Shown here: piece by piece, positions 2,308 through 59,853 of the stretch
Layout: each line of letters opens with the position of its first letter
How positions within the stretch are numbered: position 1 is the first letter of the stretch
Assembly: GCA_028696815.1 (NCBI GenBank)
Contig: JAQVGG010000004.1
Span: 1-64,000 of the forward strand
DNA length: 64,000 nucleotides
Source: Candidatus Altimarinota bacterium
GTDB lineage: Bacteria; Patescibacteriota; Gracilibacteria; BD1-5; UBA6164
Direction: 5' to 3'
The notes under the pieces: generated by a model
Told to the model about the DNA's origin: nothing
Database searches by the model: none
Seen by the model: only the letters and a program-made list of their open reading frames with translations
Translations under genes and position numbers: made by a program

Positions 2308-3264
2308 CTATTTTATCTCAAAGTCAATTCAATTATTATATTCTATAGCTTTATTTTCTTTTAATAAACCATTAATATTTATGGTATATTTTCAGTTTGG
2401 ATACAATTCTTCTCAAACATAATCAGTAGGGAATATACTATATCTTGTGTCTATTCAATCTTCTTCTGTAAAAATAGTTATTGGTACATATCTATATAAT
2501 TCTTTTCTTTCTTTATATTCAGAACAATCTCAAGGTTTTATCTCTTCATAATTTAATCATGCATGTAAAGATACTTCGTTGAAAACTATATCTGTATTAT
2601 TACAAATATTGATTTCATAATCTCATGTTTCAATTATTTTTATACTTTTTACATCTCTAGAATTCAAGATAATTTTTTCTTTATCTTTTTTTATAAAATA
2701 ATAAGCTCAATTGGAAAAATATAGTTTTGCTTGAAATGATTTTTCTGAAGTAGTTATTATCATAGTAGTCTGACTATTTAAAACTTTTTTATACATTATA
2801 AAGGATCAAAATATAAATAGTATAAAATAAATTATTCAAAAAATTTTTAAGTGTTTTAAAAAAACATTTCTATACCAATTAAAATAAAACAAAACTAATG
2901 AAATAATAATTCAAACTAATACTGTATACTTTTGATATTCTGCATTATCAAAAAGAATGACACCTATAATATAAAATATTAAAACAGGTGGAAACATTGC
3001 TCATATAATAAAAACAAAGAAAAATAACAATGAAAATAGTAAAGTATTATCTAAAGTCATAAAAGCAAAATAGCTACTATTTTCTCATAAAAAATTACCT
3101 ATAAGTGCTGATTGAAAAATAATTCACAATAAAAAAATTGCTCAAGAGAAAAAGGCAATATGACCTGATTTTAATTCTCAAATTCATATAAACATTTTAT
3201 CTATAAAAGAATCAAATCAATTAGTTTTTTCTCGTTTTTTAGGTTTTGTTGTTTTTTTGGGCAT
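2308..3264 (-). CDS. membrane protein of unknown function at the end of the defence operon
   Basis: The 318-residue protein starts with a lysine-rich cytoplasmic tail and then shows about five hydrophobic segments between residues 30 and 170 (for example FFSGAIFLLGIIF, FFFVFIIGAMFPPVLIFYIIG and the run around FGIIYFILFIFG). Residues about 175-318 form a soluble beta-rich domain, probably outside the membrane. I do not recognise the family. It follows the ABC ATPase gene after a gap of about 120 bases on the same strand. It could be a membrane effector of the upstream system or an unrelated gene. A CGA codon at residue 11 (3232-3234) is one of the rare CGA codons in the window. Confidence 0.7.
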
Positions 3265-5087: not shown

Positions 5088-6063
5088 TTCTTTTATCTTT
5101 AAATTCTATTTTATCTTGTTGAATATAATTTAAACAACTTAATCATTGGGTTCAATAATTTACAAACAATCAATTTCTTTCAGATATAAGATTTTCAATC
5201 TCATCAAGGTGTTTTTTAAGATTATTTTTTCCATTAATTAAATTAGTTGTTTCATTTAAATAATCTCTAAATGAAGAAAAATTTCAAAATACACTTAACT
5301 CATCAAATAATTCATCTGCTATATCTTTCTCTAAAACTTCGAATTTTTCTCAAATCCAAGGTTTTGCTGAATAAGAAAGTTTTTTATAACTATAACTTTT
5401 TTGTATGAGTTTTGCTCTAGGAATATCATGTTGATAATGTTCTTTAATTCATTCAAATCAATTTTCTACATTTTCTATATCATTAGTTAATTTAATATTA
5501 CAAACATCATCTTTATTTTCACATTTCTCATATATCTCTTTCATGTCAATATTGAAATATTTTTCACAAATCTCAAAATAATAACTTTGTTTTAATTCTT
5601 TAATAAAACTATCTCAACAAAATTTATCAATCTTTTTAATGTTTTTATTAATTCTTAAATCATCAAAGTAAGATTCCCAAGAGCTTTTATTTTTAGAAGG
5701 ACAAGTTCATTTAATATAAGATTTAGGTGAATTTTTATCTGATGGATATTCATCTTTTGTAAAAATACATAAGACTTCTGTTCAATCCCATATATTTTCA
5801 CAAGATTCATATAAGCATTCTTTATGAAAAGAATTATTTGAGAATTTAGATTGAAATCCATATAATAATCCATCAGGTCCTTTTTCTGGAGGTCATTCAG
5901 TTCATTTATATGTTTTTCATCAAATTGAAGGAGATTTAGTTAATCCATATTTTATTTTCATAAAATCAGCACAAAGAAACTCAAAAGTTTCATCTTCTGA
6001 TTTTCAAGGAATAACTTTTAAATTATTCCAATCTATATATTGATACATATAACTTTTATCCAT
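5080..6063 (-). CDS. PD-(D/E)XK-like nuclease, effector component of the ABC-3C-like system
   Basis: The 327-residue protein shows a restriction-endonuclease-like N-terminal half: an acidic helix around residues 23-40 (EDETFEFLCADFM), then GPDGLLYGFQSKF at 62-74, giving the D64 ... Q71-x-K73 arrangement of PD-(D/E)XK nucleases, where Q often replaces E. The C-terminal part (about 190-327) is helical and probably contacts the middle component and ATPase. It starts 16 bases after the methyltransferase gene and overlaps the next gene, so it belongs to the same transcription unit. If active it would cut DNA when the ATPase senses infection. The nuclease call is from motif pattern; the middle domain is unrecognised. 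Confidence 0.62.
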
Positions 6064-6079
6064 ATTTGCTATTATTAAA

Positions 6080-9000
6080 TTATTTTTCTAAACTCTCCTC
6101 AACCACTCTCACTTCCTCCTCACTCAAACCATACAATTCATAAACCATTTTATCAATTCCATCTTCCAAATCTTTTTGCTCTTTTGGAGGATTTTTTGGA
6201 TCATAAAATGGTTGTTTTGTAATTTCCAAAATCTTATCAACTTTTTCAATAAAAGGTTTTTGATCTTCTGAAGAGATTTGTTTTATTGGAATATTTACTA
6301 ATGGCTCTTTATCTAATTGATAATTATTTCATTGCATTTTTCACTTATTTTTTAACCAAAACTCTATTAGTTTTGAGTTTAATAATCAAGTTAAATACTT
6401 TTGATTTAATCTATCAGTTTTTATAACATAAAAAGTTGCTGAAACATAACTATCAAAATCAACATATGAAAAAGCAGGTTTATCACATTTTCTAACAGCA
6501 ATAATTTTTTCTCAAATAAAAAACTTCTCATCTCTAGCTCTATGTAATCAATAAGGTTTATTATCTGATGTTATAACCTCCTTAAATTTATCTAAATGTT
6601 TTTTTATACTTGGATAATCTTCAATTTTTGATATATCTTTAAAACTAGAATCTGTATAAATAACATATTTTTTATTTGTTGAATTTGCAAAATATCTTCA
6701 AATTTCCTCTGTAGAAAAGTCAGGTTTTACAAGTCATTTTTCAAAATCAGTTAAATTTAATTCTTCTTTTTCTTCATTATTTAAAACAAAAATTCAGTCT
6801 CAAATTTTGTAATTATCTCCTAATATTTCCAATCTATCTTTATTTACATCTCAATGATGATGATGTATTCAGTTTGCAACTTCTTTGTCAGTAAGTTTAA
6901 AAGTTCAATTTTTTAGTATTTTTTCTAAAATAATATCTTTTTCATCATCTACAAAATCCAAAGTTTTATCTAAATATTTTGATTTTTCTATTTTTGAATA
7001 ATGCTTTTTATAATCATCAGAATTTTTTGTATCATATAAAAATCTATCTAAATTGTTTCTATCAAAATCTTTGCTTTCAATTCTTGAATATTTAACTTCA
7101 TACTTAGAATTATTTTTTGTTTTTTCTAAAATATAAATCATTGTTTGAATTCAAGCAGTTTCGAATACTTTAAAATCTCAAAAATCTATAAATTCTTTAA
7201 TTTTAGCATCTTCTAAGATTTTATTTCTCATTTTTTTAGCACCAAAACTCGTTATCCAATTGTTTTGTGCTATAAAACTTTGAATTCATCAATCTTTCAA
7301 TAAATCAAGTCCATAACAAGCAAAATAATACCATAGATCCATCTTTCAAATATAATATGGTTTATCTCTTAATCAATCAAAAGCATTTTTATTATCATAT
7401 TCTTTAATATAGGGAGGATTTCAAATTGTGATGCCAATCTTTTCTCATCTTCTAAATCAAAACATTAAATTAAGATCAAAAAACTCTGCATTTGTTTTAC
7501 TTTCAAATGGGTTAAAAGTAATTAATTGTTTTTCTTTTTCCGAAGCAAAAATATTTGAGTGTCATTTTTGTAAAATTTCTTCTATTGATCTTCTTATTTT
7601 ATCTTTTCATTCATCGTTCTTATTTTCTTTGTTTGATTGTGTATTGTACCACTTGTTTACTTTTTCTCTTAATTTTTCTTCATCAATATTATCAAAAATT
7701 CATTTATCATCAATTAAAGGTATCAAAGTATTTGCACAAACAAACTTAAATTCAAAATTTGGCAAAGGTTCTGGAGTTTCTTCATCAACAACAAGTGATA
7801 ACCAAAATCTCAATCTTGCAATATCTATAGCACCTGCTGAAATATCAACTCAATAAATATTATTTTGAATTACATCTCTTTTGATTTTATACATTGAAAT
7901 TTTTCAAGATTCATTTTTGAATTCGGTAGTATTTACTCCAAAAGTTTCATAAAAAACTCAGTAAATATAATACCTTATACTGCTTATTTCATGCAAAAGT
8001 CACATAGGAAAAGCCCCTGATCCGATTGCTGGGTCTAAAACTTTTACTTTTTTCAAAATTTCATCTACTTCCGTGATAATTGAAGCCAATTTATCAAAAA
8101 TTTCTTCAGTTATTTCTTGTTTTGAAACAAGAAATTGTTCTTTAAAATCAAAAAGTTTTCTTATCTTTTCCTCATTTTCTTCTTTTTTTCATTTTAAATT
8201 ATTCACTAAATATGCTATCAAACTCTCTTTTGTCATATAGTGAACTATTTCACGAGGAGTATAAAAAGCACCCAGTTTTTTGTTTAATACATTATCTATT
8301 TCGAGTTTTTTCTTTTTTCAAGAAATTTCATTTTTATTATATTCTTCTAAAATTTTATCTATATTTTCAGTGCTTATAGAAATCATTTTTTCAAAAATTT
8401 TTCAAAGCATTTCTGGATCAACAGCTACTTCTTTATCATACAAATCATCTTCATCAATCGTGAAGTTGTAAGTATCAAACACATCTAGTATTCAAGTTTT
8501 CTCAGTATTTGAGAAAATATCATTTGAGATTTTTGCTCTGTTTACATTCCAATTTTCATAATCTTTTTTAAATAATCATCCATTTAAATAAGGCACTTTA
8601 AAATTAAAATAATCATTTATATCATTATTATCTCTATTATCTTTATTTAATCATTCATAAAATAAATGTTCTAAATAATCATTGTAAAAAAATCATGTTT
8701 TTTCCCAAACAGTTTTATATTCATTGCTTGTGAAATCATTCCACAAACTTCTCATAAAATCCTTATCTCAATCATGACAATATATTCATCATTTTTTTAC
8801 TCATAGCCAACCTTTCTTTTGTATAAAATACAAAAAAACTATTTTTCAAAGAAGAGTTTTTGTAAAGCTTACTAGATCTATTTTTTGAGTTTTTAGATTG
8901 TTTTTAAAATCTACATCTTTTATAACTTCTCTATAAAGTCTTATATAAAGATCTAGATAATTATTGAAAAACTCTTTTCTCACTACTTCTACATCAAAAG

Positions 9001-9463
9001 CATCAAAGAGTTCTTTAAAATTATTTATTTGTTTATTTAATTGTTTTTCAGGAGTTTTAGTTTTTTCTCATTCTCAAAGCAAAAAACTATATCTTTTTGG
9101 ATCAGATTCCTCTTTTTCTCAAAAAATCTTTTTTCTCGTAAGAAGTGATAATCTATAACTTTTTGAATCATCACTATAAAAAATAACAAGAGCATAATTT
9201 GCTCAGATATTTTCCATGATTTTAAATGCATCTTTAGTAAGAGTTATTCTTGGATCTTTTTTAGACTTTTGTTTCATTTCTAAAACATATACATCTCTAT
9301 CAAGATGTACTCTTCATAAGATAAAACAATTTTTTTCATCAAAAAAAATTGTTTTTCTATCAATATTTATGCTTTTATAGTCTTTTTGATATTTATCTCC
9401 AAAAAGTATTGAACTAAGTAAATTTTCAAAAGATTGTCTTTGGTAGGTTTGGTTAAATTTCAT
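6080..9463 (-). CDS. Eco57I-type adenine-specific DNA methyltransferase (large restriction-modification protein)
   Basis: The 1127-residue protein contains the N6-adenine methyltransferase motif NPPY at residues 682-685 and the upstream motif I region ADPAIGSGAFPMG, in which TGA encodes one glycine. The N-terminal segment has YVLEMKQK at about 59-66 with acidic residues before it, compatible with a D...ExK nuclease core as in type IIG enzymes. The C-terminal third looks like a target-recognition region, and the last residues read YELYGLSEEEVRVVEES, typical of these proteins. It follows the helicase by 20 bases. It would methylate host DNA at an unknown motif and mark self for the associated helicase/nuclease. 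Confidence 0.93.
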
Positions 9464-9483
9464 GAAACTATGTATTTAAATTA

Positions 9484-12400
9484 TTAAAATTCTTCACTAA
9501 TAATAAGATCTAATGTTTCTTCAGTAAAGTTTTTAGAGAAATCTATTATTCATTTTAAATATTCTTCTGTTATGTTTTCTCTAATAATTTTTGATTCTTT
9601 TTCCCAAGTTGCTTTTGTAATTTTTCTTATTTGCTTCATATAAACAAGAGGTAAAGCTCATAATTTTATAACTTCACTTAATAATTTATAATAATTATCT
9701 CAAGTCATCTCAAATAAATTATTCGCATTTTCAAATGCTTTCTTTTGTTGAGTATTCATATTTGCTTCACTTCAAGGTTTTTTGATCTCTTCTTTTAGTT
9801 TTTCATAATTAGTATAAAAGTTTTTAGAAACTTCTTTTGATTCTTCTTTGACATCTGCTTTAAATAATTCAAATGCTTCTTTCACTGTTATAGGAGAAAT
9901 TAAATCTTTTTTTGTGTCATAAAAATAGAAAATTAAATTTGCTCTTTTTTTAGCAAAAAGTAAAATTCAAGAAACTCATTTTTTTTCTATTCTCATTATT
10001 TTTGTTCTTTGTGGAATATTTTCTATCTTTTTTGCTAATTCTTTATCAGCAATTGCTTTTTTATAATCATTTAAATATTCACTATCCCAAGATTTATCTT
10101 CATTTGTATTTTTATCATTTTCAATAACTTTTTTATAAAAAGATCATACTTCTTCTTCTCAAGTCAAAGTTTTTACATCAACTCATAAAACAGTTGCAAT
10201 CATTCTAATTTTTAGTTTAGATATTCTTTTTGTATTTACATAATCTTCTCAAACAAGAGATGGAAAATAATTATAAATATATATAGTATCATAAACTTTT
10301 TTATTTATTCTGTTTATTCTTCAGATTCTTTGGATTACTTTTGTTGGATTATATGGAATATCATAATTTATAACTATACCTGCTCTATGAAGATTATATC
10401 ATTCAGAAATTGCATCAGTTCAAAGTAAAATATCATAATTATTTTCTTGTTTTGATATTTCAACTCATGCATCAAAATTTAGTTTTATATCTTTTTTCAG
10501 TTCATCAGTTTTTGATTTTCAAGTTACCACTAAAACTCTCTCTCAAAGATTAGATTTAAGATATTCTACTGTATCAGCAAACATTGAAAAAACTACTATT
10601 TTTCTGTCTTGATTTTCTTTTTGTAACTCTTTTAATTTAATTGCGAAACTATCTAGTTTTGGATCATTTTTCACTTTATCCCAATCTTTTTGTAATCATT
10701 TTAAAAATTCTAAATCAGATTCTAAATCTCTCATAAATTTAGAATCCAAATCATTTTTCATTATTAATATTCAATTCTTTTCTTTAATATATTCCCTTAC
10801 TTTATCAACTTGTTCTTCTGCTAAAATTCATTCTTCATCAAAAAAATCTTCCACATCAGGCAAACTTCATTTTTTTATTACAGGAATTCAATCAAGAACT
10901 TGTAAATAAGTTTTTACAGTTTCATAAGAAGATATAATTGAAGCAAGAGTTTTTTTGAAGGCAAATATAGAACTTTCAAATCTAGAAACTAAGAGTCTTC
11001 TTATAAAAAATGGCATGTTTTTTTGTCTTCATTCTAAAAGAGCATATTCATATCATAAAGTATCTTCTATTTCACCTTGATATTTTTCTACATTTGCTTT
11101 ATCTATATAAGTCAAAGCACGATATCTTGCTCATGCAAAATTTATAGAATTTCACTCACTATCTACTTCAACAAGAGCTTCTAAAGTATCTACATAAAGT
11201 TCTTCTATATCTCATAAATCAAATTTTAATTCTTTTGGATCTGAAACTTTTGAAAACTCAAATCATTGTTCTTTTAAATCTTTTTTATATGATTCAACTT
11301 CTTCTAAATCTACTCTTGATCTTCTTACTACTACAGGTCAAATAAGTTGTCTTATATTTTCTGCTAAGTTTTTTAATTTGATTCAAGAAGTTTTTTCATC
11401 AATAACTTTTTCTTTTTCCTCTTTTCTTATTTCGAGATATTTATTTTGTAAATCTTTGAAATCACCAATTAAACCATTTTTTGTATGAATAGTTGGATTT
11501 CAAGCAATTTGAAATAACTTAATTAAATTAAAAATATCATTTGGCTCATTATTAAAAGGAGTTGCAGATAGAAGTATAACCTTTTTTCATTGACATAACT
11601 GATGAAGTCTTCAATAATCAATAGTATCAGCATTTCTATATTTATGTGCTTCATCTATAAGTATTACACTTGCTTTATGTATATCATTTAAGTCATATTC
11701 TAATGCTTTTTCAATTTTTCAAGAACTGAAAATTTCAACTTTTAAATTAAAATCTTTTTTATAATCATTCCATCAATCTTCCAAATGTGGAGGACATATA
11801 ATAATTGCTTTAGAATTTTCTTCTAACCTTTGTAAATTTCAAACTAAAGTAGATCAAATAACTGATTTTCCAAGTCAAACTACATCAGCAATAATTACTC
11901 AATTATGCTCATTTATAATTTTTAATCACTTTTTAATAGCATCAATTTGATATTCAAGATTTCAAAATTTTTCTCACGTTAAATCAGAAGGTGTTTTAAT
12001 ATCTTCATCATCATTAAAATATTCTTTTAATAACCTAATATAACATAAATAAGGTTCTGTTAATCTTAACCAAGTTTCTTGTTTTAACACTTTTACAAGT
12101 TCATCATTTTTTCATCAAGTAGTTATAGAAATTGAGTGATTATTCCATATATCATCAAATATTTCTTTTTCTTCTAAAAAAACTCTTGAATCCCTTTCAA
12201 TTTCATTTCTTTCTCTTCTTCATTCTAATCAAGAATAGCTTAAATTGCTAGTTCACCATATAAATGTTCATGGTAATGTTCATCATTGAGAATAAATTCA
12301 ATCATGATGAAATAAATATATTTTTTGATGATTTGGATCAATAGTTTTTCTTATTTCTAAACTACCATCAATTATTTTATTTATATAAACTTCAACTGCC

Positions 12401-12711
12401 TCAACTCAATTTAAGTTATCCAATACATCCGTTTTATTAAAAAGTTCTTTTACTTGTTTTATAGCATCTGTCTTAGTAGGTGTAGAAAAATTAATTTCAT
12501 TTATTTTTAAAACTGAATTTACAATTTTTAATTCTGTATCCATTCAAATAAGAATTCTAACTTTTTTATCTCAAAGTTCTTTATAAATTCATTTGAATCA
12601 AGAAAAATAAAAAAATCATACAAGAATATCTAATTTATTTGTTGCTGGTAATACTTTTTCAATTATTTCAGATAACAATTCATCTGTATTTCTGATTATT
12701 TGTGCAGACAT
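9484..12711 (-). CDS. SNF2-family helicase with N-terminal PLD-like domain
   Basis: The 1075-residue protein begins with a phospholipase-D-like module: KLDILVGFFYFSGF near residue 27, NHQKIYLF near 127 (the H-x-K motif) and GTSNLSYSGL near 153. It continues into a SNF2-type motor with DVVGLGKS near 276, LIDEAHKYRN, LLSATPFNNEPNDIFNL and the lobe-2 arginine region QRIGRINR. Such PLD-helicases occur beside Eco57I-type methyltransferases in phage-defence loci and resemble the helicase of DISARM-like systems. It is the first gene of the operon and probably translocates on foreign DNA. No DrmA, DrmB or DrmC gene is in the window, so this is not a complete DISARM locus. Confidence 0.93.
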
Positions 12712-14874: not shown

Positions 14875-16188
14875 ATGCTAGACAAATTAAAACACTTGAT
14901 CGCTTTGGATAATCCTTTTAGACTTCTTTATCACAAAATAAGAGCTGTTTTGGCAAATATAGTTTATGGTTTTCCTAGTTCAGATATGACTATTATCTGA
15001 GTTACATGAACAAACTGAAAAACAACAACTTGTAACATAATAGCAAAATGACTCATAAAAGCTTGAGAAAAAGTTTTTATGTTTTCTACAGTCAACATAA
15101 TCATGTGAGACCAAGAATTTATAAACGAAACAAAGATGACTTCTCCAGATGTTTTTGAGCTTCAGAGGCTTTTAAAGATGGCAAAAAAACAGGGGATTAA
15201 AACTGCTATCATAGAAACTGCTAGTCATGGTATAAAGATGAGTCGTGTTCGGGGGATAAACTATGACATAGTAGCTCTGACAAATATTACTCAAGATCAT
15301 CTAGATCTACATAAAACCATGGAAGATTATGTAAATACAAAACTTCAGATATTTAAAAACCTGATAACATACAAAAGAAAACCTCTAGTTAAAAAATCAG
15401 CTATAGTAAATATAGATAGTGATTATCATTCTTTGTTTACTAATGAAACTTATGATGTTTTATACAGATACGGAAAAGCTCCTGAATCAGATTTACAGAT
15501 AATAGATATAAAAGAAGAACAAGAATACAATACATTTAAAATAAAAGTTTGAGCAAAAACTCTGGATATAAAAACTAAACTTAGATGAGCTTTTAATGCA
15601 TATAATATAACAGCATCTATCGGTGTATTTATGTGTTTAAATATTAAACAAGACAAGATTTTAGAAATAGTAAAAGACATAAGCCCTGTTGCTTGAAGAC
15701 TTGAAGAAGTAGAAAATATTGAATGATTTAAGATTTTTATAGATTATGCTCATACTCCAGATGCTTTAGAAAATACTCTTGGTACTATAAATGAGATAAA
15801 ATGAAATTGAAAGATTATAACTGTATTTTGAGCAACTTGAGACAGAGATAAAACAAAGAGACCTATCATGTGAGAAATAGTTTCAAGACTATCTGATAAA
15901 GTTGTACTTACTCAAGATGATGATTATAGTGAAAAAACATGAGAAATAATAAAAGATGTATTACTTTGAATAGAAAGAAAAGAAGGAGAGGATTTTTGGA
16001 TAATTACAGATAGGGAAGAGGCTATAAGAAATGCTATACTGCAAGCTGAGGCTTGAGACACTATACTGATAGCTTGAAAATGAGATGAACATGTTATGGT
16101 TACAAATGCTTGAGCTATACCATGGCACGATAAAACAAAAGTACAAGAGATTTTAAAAGCACTTGATGATAATAAAATAGTAAATTAG
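14875..16188 (+). CDS. murE: UDP-N-acetylmuramyl-tripeptide synthetase (MurE-type Mur ligase)
   Basis: The 437-residue cytoplasmic ligase adds the third amino acid to UDP-MurNAc-dipeptide using ATP. Visible motifs are the P-loop GVTGTNGKTTT at about 42-52 (two glycines from TGA), ETASHG, ALTNITQDHLDLHKTMEDY and DYAHTPDALENTL. The meso-diaminopimelate motif DNPR is replaced by DDDYSEKTG, so the amino acid used is uncertain. The N-terminal nucleotide-binding domain is shorter than in E. coli (about 495 residues). CGG at residue 126 (15250-15252) sits in RV-x-GI.YD, where many MurE proteins have Trp. It leads a murE-dnaX-priA operon. Confidence 0.93.
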
Positions 16189-16274: not shown

Positions 16275-17825
16275 ATGAGCTTATACCTAAAATACAGACC
16301 GAGAGACTTTTCAAGTTTGGAAGGACAAGAATTTATCAAACAGACTTTGAGAAAAGCAGTTTCAGACAATAAAACAGTCTGAGCTTATCTTTTTTGTGGT
16401 CCTAGATGAACAGGTAAGACAAGTAGTGCTAGAATCATGGCAAAAGCTGTAAACTGTAAAAATCCAGTGGACTGAAACCCATGTAATAAGTGTGAAATAT
16501 GTCTTGCTGTGAATAATGAAAATTTAGTTGATGTTATAGAGATAGATGCAGCTAGTCATACTTGAGTGGACAATATCAGAGAGATCATAGAAAAAGCCAG
16601 ATTTCAACCAACTCATGCTACTTATAAGATCTACATAATAGATGAGGTTCATATGCTTTCAAAATGAGCATTTAATGCGCTTCTAAAGATACTTGAAGAA
16701 CCACCTTCTTATGTAAAATTTATACTTGCAACTACTGAAACTCACAAAGTACCAGAAACTATCATATCACGTTGCCAAAGATATGATTTTAAAAGATGAA
16801 GTTATGAAGAGTTAAAAAATAGACTGACTTACATAGCTAAAAAAGAAAAAGTTCAGATAGATGAAAAATCTCTTGATTATATCATAAAAAATTCTAGCGG
16901 TTGATACAGAAATGCCATAAGTTTATTTGAGCAGTTGATTAATGACTCTGAGATAAATTATGACAAAATAATATCTACACTTTGAATAGTAGAAGATGAG
17001 CTTTTATCTAATTTTTTAGATAAGTTAATAAATGAAGACGCGAGTATAGTAAATGACTTTGATAACCTTATAGCCGACTGAAAAAATATAAAATTGTTTT
17101 TTAAAGAACTTATATTTTTCACAAAAGATATAACTACTAAAAAAGCTCTTGCTTGAGAAAATATAAACTCTTACTTAAAAGTATTGAGTACACTTGATGA
17201 AACTTACTCTAAAACAAAAAACTCTCTTGATGAAAATACTACATTTTTGATTTGAGTGTTAAAAATAGTGAGTGCTTATAGTGAAGAAGCAACTCCTAAG
17301 AACAAACCTCACCCTACCCCTCTCCTTAAAGGAGAGGGAATAGGTGGTTTAGATATAAATAATAATAATAAAAGTCCTTCTGCTTCCTCTCCTCTAGGGA
17401 TAACTGAGACAGGAGAGCTTGCTCGACTATCTTCGAAGTTAGAATGAAATAGAGGACCGAGGTGAGCTCAAAATGATGAGAAGCTCAAAACAGAAGAAGA
17501 TATATCTCACGATGATATATCTGATATCTTTTGATGAGAGGAAGAAAAGCCCTCGCCCCCAACCCCTCTCCCAAAGAGAGAGGGGAGTAGCTCAAGCTCT
17601 TTCAACAAAGAAACTTTCATAGAAAAACTAAAGTCAGCGTGAGCAAAATGAGCTTTAACGATGAGTATCAGGTGAGCAGAAACTAGTTTTATGTGAGATA
17701 CTCTACATCTAGAGTTTAAAACCGCCTTTGCTATGAAATCAGTAAACACTGCCGATAATATAGCTCTACTTAATTGAGCATTAGAAGCTATGTGATTAAA
17801 CGATGTAAATATTATGTTTAGGTAG
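16275..17825 (+). CDS. dnaX: DNA polymerase III subunit gamma/tau
   Basis: The 516-residue protein is the clamp-loader ATPase that loads the sliding clamp at the replication fork. It starts [19 protein letters not shown] and carries the P-loop GPRGTGKT at 42-49, a zinc-binding cysteine cluster ([16 protein letters not shown]), IIDEVHMLS with the DE-box and the SRC sensor (ISRCQRYDF). The poorly conserved linker at about 345-465 is unusual: it contains two palindromic-repeat insertions ([23 protein letters not shown]). A short tau-like C-terminal domain follows. The stop TAG is one base before the priA ATG, so the genes are coupled. A CGA at 17424 falls inside the inserted linker. Confidence 0.95.
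17307..17343 (+). repeat. in-frame palindromic repeat in dnaX, first copy
   Basis: CCCTCTCCTTAAAGGAGAGGG forms a near-perfect palindrome in a GC-rich block unlike the surrounding AT-rich DNA. It is translated as a Pro/Lys/Gly-rich insert. Confidence 0.8.
17547..17590 (+). repeat. in-frame palindromic repeat in dnaX, second copy
   Basis: CCCCTCTCCCAAAGAGAGAGGGG and its flank GCCCTCGCCCCCAA repeat the theme of the copy at 17307, translated here as [10 protein letters not shown]. Confidence 0.8.
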
Positions 17826-19007: not shown

Positions 19008-19262
19008 ATTCACATAACAAAGCAAGAAAAAATAGTAGAAAAACTTTTAAATAGACCAACAAGTTTAAAATATAGCGAAATAGAAAAACTCTTTAATAAT
19101 TGAGATTATAAGATAGAAGAGAGAAAATGAAGTCATAAAAAAATCACTTTTTTAGAAAATGAAGAGAAATACATCATAATCCCCTTACATAATAATGATT
19201 GTAAAGATGTATATAAAATTAAACTTAAAAAATTCTACTCATTAACAAATAATTATGAATAA
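19008..19262 (+). CDS. hicA: HicA-like mRNA interferase toxin (start codon not ATG)
   Basis: The frame reads ITKQEKIVEKLLNRP, then KIEERKGSHKKITF and YIIIPLHNND, the HicA signature: a double-stranded RNA-binding-like fold with catalytic His in GSHxK. Expected role: cutting mRNA until bound by HicB. There is no ATG in this frame: a TAA lies just upstream (18993-18995), and the only nearby ATG (18995) is in another frame and inside the promoter box. I set the start at ATT 19008 (84 residues); ATA 18999 or 19014 are alternatives. Its stop overlaps the hicB ATG by eight bases. A frameshift near the 5' end is the other explanation. Confidence 0.72.
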
Positions 19263-19584
19263 TACAATATACATAGAATATTTAAATAAAAAATATCCTG
19301 TTAATATTTCAAAGCCTAAAGATCCAGATTTTGCTGATATAGAAACAGCTATTTTTGTTGAATGCAAAGAAGCATGATTTGCACAAGAGCGGGATTTAAG
19401 TGATCTATGAAAATTATTAGAATTATTACCTGAACTTATAGCAGAAAAGAAAGCAGAAAGAAAAAAAGATATTATAAATTTAAGAATAACAAGGGAAGAG
19501 AAAAGCAAAATAGAAGCTTTAGCAAAAATGAAGTGATATAAAAATATAAGCTCCTATATAAGAGAAAGGGCACTACAAAAATAA
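19255..19584 (+). CDS. hicB: HicB-like antitoxin
   Basis: The 109-residue protein has a partial HicB-like N-terminal fold (ADIETAIFVECKEAGFAQERDL) and a C-terminal ribbon-helix-helix-like region (IINLRITREEKSKIEALAKMKG..SSYIRERAL) that should bind DNA and repress the operon. Its start overlaps the toxin stop. A CGG codon at 19390 (residue 46) lies in QE-x-DL, a position I cannot calibrate. It ends a few bases before the converging ABC-F gene. Confidence 0.78.
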
Positions 19585-38044: not shown

Positions 38045-38980
38045 ATGCCTGAAATTTTATCGTTTCCTGATTTTTTAAAACAAAATAAAGATACAAGATA
38101 CCTAGTGTATACTTGAGATTTAGTAAAGTATCTTAATAATATGGACTGACTAGATTCAGAACAAAAAAATAAGATTTTAGGCTATATTTGATATCTTTCT
38201 CAAAACTGAATCACTCAAGAAGAACATAAAGCTATTCTTGATAGTATAGATTTTTATAAAAGATGAGTAAAACAAGTAGCTAAAAAAGAAAAAGCTAATT
38301 TAAGAAAAGATCTAGAAAAAGATATATCAGATAATAAGTATGTAGAATACTTAGAAAAAGTATGATTAACATGAAATGCTTTAGAAATATGAATAACTTT
38401 AATATACAAATCAGGTATAGATATTAATAAATCAAATAGAGATATAATAATAAGAAGATTATCTTTACTGGTTAACTTTATAATTGAAGTAGAAAGTGAT
38501 AGAAAAAATAAGTCTAATAAATGGTCTTCTGCAAAATGATATTTCCAATATCTAAATTGAGATTGATGAGATAGGAAAAAATGAGAATATAGTTCTTTTG
38601 AATCTGGCTTAAGAAGAGCATATATATATTACACTGACTCTATAAATGTACCTACAACAAGATTTAATAATACTAAAGTACCTAAATGGGTGGAAACTGC
38701 TTATAATAAACCTTGATATGACCCTAGAGACCTAACAGCTGAACAACAAGTAAGTTTATTTTTAATTGATATATTTAATAAACCATGAACTAGTAAACAT
38801 ATAGAAAATATTTTAATAAATTGAAATTTATGGTCTTTAAGAAGATTATATGAAGATAATCACCATACAAGCAAAGATAGACATACTACACCAGAAACAG
38901 AAAAAAGACTAAATAAATATATAGCTTTATATCAAAATAAATTTGAATTATTAAACTACGTCCAATATGCAAAACTCTAA
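38045..38980 (+). CDS. muramidase-like protein, tentative
   Basis: The 311-residue protein has no signal peptide I can see. Its middle reads KWSSAKGYFQYLNGDGG near 185-205 and SSFESGLRRAYIYY, then DPRDLTAEQQVSLFLIDIFNKPG. This arrangement (S.A.GYFQ, then DP..LT.EQQ..LF) is like lysozyme or lytic-transglycosylase folds in which a helper motif follows the catalytic region. I am not certain of the family or of the catalytic Glu. It overlaps the pseudopilin gene by 14 bases, so a role in cell-wall passage for a pilus or secretion apparatus is possible. Confidence 0.5.
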
Positions 38981-39374
38981 AAATGCATTTTCTCTTGTGG
39001 AAATATTAGTAGCATCTGTAATACTATCAATTACAGTTTTTTGAGTATATAAACTTATTTGAGAAAACAACAAAATAATCAATAATTCAGATAACTATAC
39101 TCAGATTGATTATATATTCCCTAACCTCACTGAGTGTATTAATCATATATGATTTACAAATTTTAAATCAATTACTACAAGTAGTTATGACTTTAATTTT
39201 TGAGCAACTTGAACTTGATGCTATACAGGTAGTTCAAAAGTAATTATTAATAATATAGAATACCGCCTTAGTTGAAAAATAACAAACTCATGAAGTGAGT
39301 TTATAGATTGGAATCTTAATATAGAAGCTGAATGAGTGTGAAAAAGATCACAAAGCTTTCGACAAATCCAATAA
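38967..39374 (+). CDS. pseudopilin / prepilin-like protein
   Basis: The 135-residue protein begins MQNSKNAFSLVEILVASVIL, a short type III signal (prepilin peptidase would cut before F8 with Glu at +5) followed by a hydrophobic helix. Two cysteines (TECINH, GCYTGS) may form a disulfide in the globular head. It overlaps the preceding gene, so they are co-expressed. CGA at residue 132 (39360) is one of the rare CGA codons. Together with the pilT genes this indicates a type IV pilus-like machine. Confidence 0.85.
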
Positions 39375-39408
39375 AAAAAGAAAAATTGAATTTTTTCTTT
39401 TTTTTTAT
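39373..39408 (+). terminator. terminator after the pseudopilin gene
   Basis: AAAAAAAGAAAAATT and AATTTTTTCTTTTTTT pair to give an AT-only stem ending in a T-run. Confidence 0.6.
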
Positions 39409-39445
39409 AAAATCTTTTAATATTAATTTGAATTACATAAAAAAC

Positions 39446-40930
39446 ATGCAACAAATCTGAATTAAAAAGTGAGATATTCTAGAAAATATAAAAGTTGAAA
39501 AACTTATATTTTGATGAAAATGATATGCAAGACTGAGTCATTCAAATCCCGATGTGGATTGAAGAGTTATATTTATAACATGATGAGCTATACCATGAGC
39601 TATTGTTAATCTAAAAGTACTTAAGAAAAAAAATTCTTTTATAGAAACTCAAATAATTGATACAGTTACAAAATCACCAATTGAACAAACTCATCCAAAT
39701 AATCCATACTGAGAATGCGGTTGATGTAAACGGGTAAATATTCCCTATAAGGAACAATTAAAAATCAAACAAAATCAAGTAAAAGAAGCTTTTAATATTG
39801 TCTCAAAACTTCAAGATAATATAGATTTTTTAGATATTGGACCTTCCCCTATAATAGATTGATACAGAAATAAAGTTGAGTTCTCATACGGAAAATTTAT
39901 ATCTCACAAATTATGAATAGAAGAGCATTTTAATTTAGGTTTTCATAAACAATGAGAGTTTTCTAAAGTACAAGATTATGATTGATGTGTACTTATAGAT
40001 GAAATACAAAATGAAATATATAGAGAAATAAAAAAATACACAAAAACACTTTGATTACCAGTTTATGATCAAATGAAAAATGAGTGATTTTTTAGACATC
40101 TACTTATTAGAAGAACATATTTTACAGATGAAATAATGTTACTTCTTAGTTTTAATCCTGAGTATTTTGAAAAAAATAGTAAACTAAATAAGGATGAAAA
40201 ACTAAACTTAATAAAAGATTTTTTGACCAATCTTACAAAAAAATACTCTCAGATAAAATCTATATATCTTTCTCATAATCCAAATAAGTCTGATACATGT
40301 ATATGAGACCTAGAGTTGATTTATGGAGAAAAAACTATAAAGGAAAAATTACTTGATCTAACTTTTCATATCTCTCCTACTTCGTTTTTTCAAACAAATA
40401 GTTCCTGAGCAGAAAAATTGTACTCTTTAGTGTTAGATTTTACTAACCATCATCTAACCTCTACCAAAGGGAAATGAATAGAACAGATGACTATTCTTGA
40501 CTTGTACTGATGAACTTGAACTATTTGAATGATATTCGCAAAACATTGAGCAAAAGAAGTACACAGTGTTGAACTAGTTACCTCAGCATCAAGAGACTGA
40601 GAAGTTAACGCAAAATTAAACTGACTAGCAAATATAAAGTTTGAAAATAAAAAAGTTGAAGATTTTTTAGTTGAATATACAAGTAAATGAAATAAAGCTG
40701 ACCTACTTATTATTGATCCTCCTAGGGCCTGAATGCATCCATGAGCACTTCCAGAAATATTAAAATTTTGAACAAAACAAATTATATATGTAAGCTGTAA
40801 CCCTGCAACTTTAGTTAGGGATTTAGAATACATATTAAAAAATAGTACCTATAAAATAGAAAAAGTAAAACCTGTTGATATGTTTCCTCATACTCATCAC
40901 ATAGAAACTATTGTAAGTTTAGTTAAATAA
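39446..40930 (+). CDS. RNA uracil-5-methyltransferase, RlmD/TrmA family
   Basis: The 494-residue SAM-dependent enzyme methylates uridine at C5 in rRNA or tRNA. It has an N-terminal TRAM-like domain (KLIFGGKGYARL), iron-sulfur cysteines in GECGGCK near residues 90-96, then a central domain, the SAM site ILDLYGGTGTIGM and the catalytic region DPPRAGMHPG with [12 protein letters not shown] (nucleophile Cys). The codon following GGCK is CGG at residue 96 (39731-39733); homologues usually have Trp there (GGCxWQ), supporting CGG as tryptophan. Confidence 0.92.
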
Positions 40931-47583: not shown

Positions 47584-48156
47584 TTATTTTATATACTCTA
47601 ACACTTCCTCCAATTCAAAAACTCAATCCTCATCACAGAAATGTCCTTTCCTCTTAAACCCTCTAAACTCTACATCTTTCAACTCACTATAATACTGTTT
47701 TGCATTTTCAAAATTTATTAACTCATCATCATCAGATAAAAATACTATATATTTATTATTTAGATTATTAAGTTTAAAAAAATCTAAATCAATATTGAAA
47801 TAAGCTTCTAAATTATCATAGCTTTCACCAAATATATCTTTTCACAACTCATTTGTTAGTCATAGATATACTGGTGCTACTAGAACAACAATAGAATCTT
47901 TTATATCATTTTCTTCTACAAATTTTAAAGCTAGTTTACATCAAAGAGAGTGTCAAACAATAAATCAATCTTCTTTGAAATCTGAAATATATGCATCCAG
48001 ATATTCAAGCTGATCTTTTAAAACTGGATTGTCAGTATTTGGTAGATTTGGTACATATACATCAAACAATCTCTTTGTTAATTCTATCTTTAACCGAGGA
48101 AACCAGTTTCCTTTTGCATTTCATCACCGACCATGAAGTATAAGAGCTTTATCCAT
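47584..48156 (-). CDS. RBBP9/YdeN family serine hydrolase
   Basis: The 190-residue alpha/beta hydrolase has DGFIVGHSLGCKLALKF (nucleophile Ser in GHSLG), DDDELI and a C-terminal KGHFCDEDG carrying the Asp and His. It starts MDKALILHG-x-GGN..GNWFP-x-LK, where both x are CGG codons (48127-48129 and 48094-48096). Family members have HGWGG and NWFPWL, with Trp at exactly these two positions, so CGG should be read as tryptophan. Substrate unknown, probably a small ester. Confidence 0.92.
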
Positions 48157-58674: not shown

Positions 58675-59853
58675 TTAGTATACTTCAAAAGTTTTGTTTA
58701 AATCTGCCGATGATACTGGTTTTCTATTTAATATTCTCCATACCCGAATAATATAAGCTAAAACAAATGGGATTAATAATGATACATAACCCATAACTGT
58801 TAATGTATAAATACTTGATGATGCATTTTGTATTGTAAGAGAACTCTGTAAATCATAAAGCGAAGGATAGAAAGATGTATTATTAAATCAAGCTACTACA
58901 AAAAGTGAAAATACTACAAGTATAGTTCCTAGTGCACTCACCCAAAATGGTCTTTTACATTTTCATAATATTCATGCAACAATTCATATCAAAACCATAA
59001 TAACTCATAGTAAAAATAATCATAGTACTATAGGCATTTCTAAAAAGTTGTTTAGATACTTATAGGCCTCCATACTAACATGCATTGTAGTTGGATCATA
59101 TGCAAATCAATCTATAGTCAACAATTTTCAAACAAAAGTTAAAAAGAAAACTAAAAACACAAAAGTATATGGAATCAATGCTTTTCTTGCCCTAGCTACA
59201 AGTGGTTTACTTTTAATCGTATGTGTTATATAAAGTAAAGCTAGAACAATAGACAAAAAAAGTACAGAAAGTCACAATGATATATTTGTAATAAATGCTA
59301 ATTGCTTAACATTCCATAAAGCTTCTAATCAGTGAAATGGTGAAGTCCATGAAGATATATACATAGAAGACCCTCCTAAATCTACAAAGTTGTTTTTATT
59401 TACTATAAAGTTTGATCCCGTAAAAAATGTTGCAACAGCTACTCATAAAAGTAGAGGAGCTAAAAGTCCATTTAAAAATAAAAATATATTAAATGTTTTT
59501 GTTCATAAAAAGTTTTGAGCTTTTGTTCTATATTTAAACGAAACTCATTCAAGTATAAAAAGAAATAGTATAGCAAACCATACCCAAAAAGCTCAACCAA
59601 AAGAAGTTGAATAAAAAAGTGGAAAAGAAGCAAAAAATGCTCATCAAAATGTAACCAGAGTTGTAAATGTTAAGTCATATTTTGTTCAAACTGAGTTCAG
59701 TATAAATGTTCTTTCCTTTTCATTCTTAGCTAAAAGTATTGAAAGTACTTGTCAACCTTGAACAAAAAGTAAAAATACTAACAAAGAACCTAAAATAGAA
59801 ACCAATATCCACCAATATTGTTGTAATTGTAAATATGATAAAGTTTCAAACAT
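58675..59853 (-). CDS. cydB: cytochrome bd oxidase subunit II
   Basis: The 392-residue membrane protein has eight to nine hydrophobic segments. It starts LSYLQLQQYWWILVSILGSLLVF and contains LFVQGGQ, FGGAFWVWFAILFLFILEGVSFKYR and HGLEALWNVKQ, all typical of Bacteroidetes-like CydB. The C-terminal YII-x-VWRILNRKPVSSADL has CGG (residue 370, 58744-58746) where homologues usually have an aromatic residue. It partners CydA in quinol oxidation and oxygen reduction. In Bacteroidetes the order DUF4492-cydA-cydB is the same. Confidence 0.93.

Follow-up and report, generated by a model that had tools for sequence, protein, structure and literature searches.

CGG as a probable tryptophan codon beside arginine CGA in a family of Candidatus Gracilibacteria

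Changes in the meaning of sense codons are very few in bacteria. Shulgina and Eddy (2021; PMC8629427) described a change of both CGA and CGG to Trp in the Absconditabacteria and of CGG to Trp in two clades of Firmicutes, and CGG to Trp is reported for Anaerococcus and for the Bacilli RFN20/Onthovivens (PMC8629427; PMC13092985). Shulgina and Eddy (PMC8629427) also remark that CGG may stand for Trp in some Gracilibacteria, and they argue that a tRNA-UCG makes a split between CGA and CGG difficult in the group; the remark is short and is given no mechanism in the main text. The paper on the closed Gracilibacteria genome CP042461 (PMC6851277) used NCBI translation table 25 (SR1 and Gracilibacteria), and no mention of CGG was found in its searched passages. 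A literature search of main texts found no further paper on CGG as Trp in Gracilibacteria. To our knowledge, NCBI has no table that combines TGA as Gly, CGG as Trp and CGA as Arg.

The window, i.e., the whole stretch of 64,000 nucleotides that was analysed, lies on contig C32 of a genome (G000) of 1.19 Mb in 41 contigs with 26% GC, a completeness of 98.8% and a contamination of 6.2%. It reads as long, dense open reading frames when TGA is taken as Gly and has almost none under the standard code; 903 TGA codons are in frame within its ORFs. The residue (Gly) was adopted from table 25, and the genome carries a tRNA-UCA with Gly-type G1:C72 and U73 (C36:33677). In four contigs (C3, C23, C27, C33) in-frame TGA is almost absent; they are therefore likely contamination and were left out of the analysis, and contigs C6, C8 and C10 were read as N. 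The best ThrRS matches of the genome are Gracilibacteria, and in a tree of this single gene the SR1 (Absconditabacteria) rows form a clade of their own (SH-aLRT 99), separate from the window genome. By these ThrRS sequences the organism belongs to Ca. Gracilibacteria and not to the Absconditabacteria. The window also contains, at 6080-12711 on the minus strand, a large DNA methylase-like ORF (1127 aa) beside a helicase-like ORF (1075 aa), a pair that resembles a restriction/defence island.

Among the 18,960 codons of the window there are only 6 CGG and 3 CGA, with 506 AGA and 126 TGG, just as an earlier sequence-only reading had it, in which CGG and CGA were called very rare and Arg was said to be encoded by AGA. 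All CGG codons cited in that reading are in frame with TGA as Gly; a sixth, in a 109-aa ORF for which the homologue search gave none, had been overlooked (Table 1). The sites differ in what they tell. The two in the RBBP9/YdeN-like hydrolase had both been taken for Trp: codon 31 has W opposite in YdeN (1uxo, WFPWLK) and in RBBP9 (9fcr) and thus stood, while codon 20 is, by its alignment, compatible with an aromatic residue only and not decisive taken alone. The site in the RlmD/TrmA-like methyltransferase, said to be usually W, is indeed TGG in CP042461 (GGWK-W-INIPY), and the CydB site, said to be aromatic, is W in the structures 6rko, 7ose and 7nkz, among them E. coli and mycobacterial CydB. 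The MurE site had likewise been brought forward as evidence; its PDB relatives show E, D or R and CP042461 has CGG as well, and on these alignments it is not diagnostic and by itself no evidence. Two CGG sites beyond the window, in SecY and sortase, align with Tyr or other residues in structures and with Trp in CP042461. Elsewhere in the genome, three CGG sites of one ORF about 4,200 aa long (C24:10000-22599, minus strand) stand opposite W, Y and Y in CP042461.

Table 1. Coordinates of the codons, ORFs and tRNA genes discussed; positions refer to the window unless a genome is named.
Feature	Position	Strand	Remark
RBBP9/YdeN-like serine hydrolase ORF, bears two CGG codons	47584..48186	-	phmmer E 2.4e-13 to 1uxo
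CGG codon 20 of RBBP9/YdeN-family ORF (HG-CGG-GG), read as Trp	48127..48129	-	Y aligned in YdeN 1uxo
CGG codon 31 of RBBP9/YdeN-family ORF (NWFP-CGG-LK), read as Trp	48094..48096	-	W aligned
CGG codon 134 of RlmD/TrmA-like RNA methyltransferase ORF 39332-40930 (GGCK-CGG-VNIPY), read as Trp	39731..39733	+	
CGG codon 370 of CydB ORF 58675-59853, read as Trp	58744..58746	-	
CGG codon 126 of MurE ORF 14875-16188 (RV-CGG-GI)	15250..15252	+	
CGG codon 46 of 109-aa ORF 19255-19584	19390..19392	+	uninformative
CGA codon of ORF 2308-3264, retained as Arg	3232..3234	-	no aligned homologue; meaning from genome-wide inference
CGA codon of DnaX-like ORF 16275-17825, retained as Arg	17424..17426	+	stretch of poor conservation
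CGA codon of ORF 38967-39374, retained as Arg	39360..39362	+	Lys (AAA) in CP042461
Two Trp-CCG tRNA copies in G054	C5:4754-4830 and 5461-5537		
tRNA-Arg-GCG with C33	G018 C1:325011-325055		plus 25 further genomes of the family

In the window genome ARAGORN finds a tRNA with the anticodon CCG (C31:804-880), whose homologues are a single, ungapped family of 77 nt. Within the 23 members aligned the stems are paired and covarying (68 cells with two-sided changes versus 15.5 in shuffles), by which presence and structure of the tRNA are established. A1:U72 and G73 are invariant in the family; A1 with U72 and G73 is otherwise found in the window genome only in tRNA-Trp-CCA, and the tRNA-Arg genes there have G1 and A73. 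The acceptor end of the CCG tRNA is of the Trp type, matching that of the genome's own tRNA-Trp and unlike that of every tRNA-Arg seen. The sequence-only reading had proposed a search for a Trp-type tRNA with either a CCG or a TCG anticodon; a CCG tRNA with such an acceptor end is present, and a tRNA with the second anticodon was not found. The D-loop is unusual (AATTAGAA) and the T-loop is TGCAATT in nearly all members, the elbow being rewired with A18/G55 instead of the usual G18 and U55. The place in the D-loop counted as 20 is an A, which in E. coli counts as an identity element for Arg; as Trp identity takes G73 and no A20, with A1:U72 in support, the identity of the CCG tRNA is mixed by sequence rules. 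The window genome and CP042461 have one TrpRS-like ORF each, and this single candidate TrpRS presumably charges both Trp tRNAs.

In most members of the tRNA family A31:C39 is unpaired and 26:44 is paired, a minority having a regular 31:39 closing pair. Extended superwobble was set aside as explanation of the A31:C39 mismatch, both because in its published cases the top pair of the stem is unpinned (PMC13092985) and because CGA is not Trp here. Whether the Trp-CCG tRNA stems from tRNA-Arg-UCG was also weighed: the D-arms are close (TAGCTCAATTGGAAGAGT versus TAGCTTAATTAGAAGAGT); the identity of the tRNA body (0.65 to Arg-UCG, 0.65 to the SR1 tRNA-CCG and 0.62-0.63 to Trp-CCA) does not decide. 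The genome further contains a tRNA-like gene (L028; C41:5913-6045, minus strand; U1:A72, G73) whose anticodon loop holds an insert of about 60 nt, which may be an intron or the mark of a decayed gene, and two tRNA genes (C21:2164-2238 and C4:13165-13239) with abnormal anticodon loops that are poorly named by ARAGORN.

The meaning of the codons follows from a comparison of two proteomes, that of the window genome and that of the closed relative CP042461 (G018, covered for 1.2 of 1.34 Mb). In both translations an X masked CGG and CGA, and 524 reciprocal best orthologue pairs (median identity 59%) were compared, the codon likelihood being derived from all other codons. As a control, 57 of 60 other codons were recovered correctly, and the misses were amino acids whose sole or dominant codon had been left out. 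Opposite the CGG codons of the window genome stand W (17 times), CGG (5), Y (4) and one each of S, K, A and L, and never R; in the 25 informative columns lnL(W) exceeds lnL(R) by 116.7 units, and the next best amino acid, Tyr, lies 73 units below W. In the reciprocal test the CGG codons of CP042461 are opposite W 5, CGG 5, Y 2, T 1, L 1 and R 0 (lnL W-R +37.2). The CGA codons of CP042461 are opposite R in 46 of 85 cases, K in 12 and W in none (lnL W-R −280), and the six informative CGA codons of the window genome are opposite K 3, R 1, S 1 and G 1, W being disfavoured by 16 lnL units. By this comparison CGG codes for Trp and CGA for Arg, the latter most clearly in CP042461, and with TGA as Gly from table 25 this is the code of the window genome. 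The earlier claim that CGG encodes Trp is thus borne out genome-wide and far beyond chance, by orthologue alignments rather than by the profile HMMs that had been suggested.

Independent loci from other genomes, about 80 for ThrRS and 22 for tRNAs, were compared with both proteomes, so that the following counts are doubled. In the loci of named genomes with the Trp-CCG tRNA, CGG goes to W in 6/6 cases and CGA never does; in those of Gracilibacteria without this tRNA, CGG goes to R in 75/131 and CGA to R in 403/557 cases, and by these loci such Gracilibacteria read CGG as Arg. In Absconditabacteria loci CGA goes to W in 40/56 cases, by which the published result is reproduced. CGG and CGA are depleted in the genomes positive for the Trp-CCG tRNA, with 1.0 and 1.8 per 10,000 codons versus 29.5 and 125.5. 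In one locus (L220, genome G107) CGG aligns to W in 8/8 cases (counted twice); the covariance model search did not find the Trp-CCG tRNA in that genome, from whose incomplete assembly it may be missing. Another locus (L144, JALZVK010000239.1) is titled Saprospiraceae; its contig has a ThrRS of the Gracilibacteria type and TGA in frame, and comes from a mixed bin.

Other readings of these data have been weighed. CGG could be ambiguous, Trp for the most part and Arg or another residue for the rest, as in an intermediate stage of reassignment: of the 25 columns four have Tyr and four other residues, the codon is still rare, and the tRNA retains A20. It should be noted, however, that TGG gives a similar scatter by the same method (W 827/1030, the remainder Y, F and others), which is thus typical of Trp, and that the search of the window genome gave no second tRNA for CGG; we consider ambiguity quite improbable. 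Even less probable is the entire Absconditabacteria code, with both CGA and CGG as Trp, which the sequence-only reading had mentioned. It is that of a sister group with TGA as Gly, in which CGA goes to Trp in the loci above and a tRNA-CCG with A1:U72 and G73 occurs as well, but the CGA columns refute it for CP042461 and disfavour it in the window genome, and a UCG tRNA was not found in the family members positive for Trp-CCG. Of that code CGG as Trp remains; the organism is one of the Gracilibacteria and its CGA is Arg. That CGG is ordinary Arg, with the Trp-like sites as coincidence, errors or pseudogenes, has in its favour the rarity of the codon and the R of one PDB relative at the MurE site, TGG to CGG being a single transition, but is the least probable of all, given R in 0/25 informative columns versus 105/174 for CGT by the same method, five sites with CGG in both genomes, and a dedicated CCG tRNA, its acceptor end not of the Arg type, that is conserved under covariation across 18 genera; it could hold only if the alignments were wrong throughout.

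We thus favour, with a probability of about 0.93, a sense-codon reassignment in a family of Gracilibacteria in which CGG has become Trp via a dedicated CCG tRNA, CGA, CGU and CGC stay Arg, and TGA is Gly. Low GC would first have made CGG rare, at about 3 per 10,000 codons. The tRNA-Arg-UCG, which would read CGA as well as CGG as Arg, has been lost wherever a genome clearly carries the Trp-CCG tRNA. The latter is most likely the reader of CGG and most likely charged by the genome's single TrpRS, and CGG would be decoded as Trp in vivo. Because C34 pairs only with G, the CCG tRNA can take CGG and spare CGA. Against this reading weigh the mixed identity of the CCG tRNA, the small number of CGG columns, the locus L220, and a CGA that is Arg although neither a UCG nor an ACG tRNA was found in CP042461.

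For the distribution, a covariance model of the CCG tRNA was run on the 77 genomes of the order. The Trp-CCG tRNA is present in 33 of them, with at least 88 bits in every match; other tRNAs score at most 52 bits against the model (50 named genomes). It is found in 32 of the 48 genomes of the window's family, and by the model is absent from the genera g14 (8/8 genomes) and g18, which have CGG as Arg. Its one occurrence outside the family is in G054 of a second family, in two copies. This genome perhaps also carries a UCG tRNA (C15:215904), a possible case of transfer or of an intermediate state. The tRNA-Arg-UCG, identified by anticodon and T-arm pattern in agreement with a separate model, is present in 33 genomes of the order, none of which has the Trp-CCG tRNA (Fisher p 4e-13, relatedness ignored), the possible match in G054 being the only unclear case. 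Distribution and exclusivity are thereby established. Ten genomes with neither tRNA are all at most 90% complete. In the single-gene ThrRS tree, genomes positive and negative for the Trp-CCG tRNA are interleaved; transfer of ThrRS between lineages may blur this pattern, and the tree thus fits a single gain with losses or several gains. Judged from these genomes, CGG as Trp holds in most of the window genome's family.

There remains the reading of CGA. Neither a UCG nor an ACG tRNA was found in CP042461, UCG was not found in any Trp-CCG-positive member of the family, and a pattern search of the 77 genomes gave no convincing ACG tRNA. The sole Arg tRNA of the CGN box seen in CP042461 has the anticodon GCG in a loop CCGCGGA, with C33 replacing U33, which is near-universal in tRNAs. 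This C33 form is present in 26 genomes, 23 of which have the Trp-CCG tRNA and none the tRNA-Arg-UCG, and the T33 form in 15, of which 10 have the tRNA-Arg-UCG; conversely, the pattern matched in 26 Trp-CCG genomes, and 23 of these have C33. CGA would thus be read as Arg without a canonical reader, and we suggest very tentatively that the tRNA-Arg-GCG has been altered to read CGA too; that C33 enables it to do so is a guess. As far as we know, such a decoding mode is undescribed for bacteria. In the window genome no Arg tRNA of the CGN box was found, which is probably an assembly gap because CGT is used there 413 times.

A split of CGA from CGG without inosine decoding of the CGN box has been thought hard to achieve. 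Here genera with tRNA-Arg-UCG and the old code adjoin sister genera with tRNA-Trp-CCG and the new one, so that it can be tested directly whether a codon meaning was gained, was lost or reverted. There is also a practical side: table 25 puts Arg at every CGG of the window's family, so that database translations carry wrong residues and proteomic searches under this table miss the peptides that span a CGG. The table shares TGA as Gly, and its Arg for CGG is contradicted by the 17 W and 0 R of the orthologue comparison.

With the Absconditabacteria (SR1) code the present one has in common TGA as Gly, CGG as Trp, a rare CGG, low GC and a CCG tRNA with A1:U72 and G73. It differs in that CGA is Arg and a UCG tRNA was not found in the Trp-CCG-positive members of the window's family, and in the elbow of the tRNA-CCG, which in SR1 keeps G18-G19 and U55 as usual and in the Gracilibacteria has A18 and G55. 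With Anaerococcus and Onthovivens it shares CGG alone as Trp, CGA as Arg, a missing tRNA-UCG and a dedicated tRNA-CCG, but the presumed reader of CGA there is a tRNA-ICG (from ACG), whereas the pattern search of the 77 genomes gave no convincing ACG tRNA, and TGA as Gly is a further difference. The argument of Shulgina and Eddy (PMC8629427) against a split rests on a tRNA-UCG, which is gone from the genomes that clearly have the Trp-CCG tRNA. Their short remark on Gracilibacteria concerns the same phenomenon, and the window genome may belong to the set they had in mind; new with respect to the main text of that paper are the clade, the separation of CGG from CGA, and the tRNA with its distribution and its exclusivity with tRNA-Arg-UCG.
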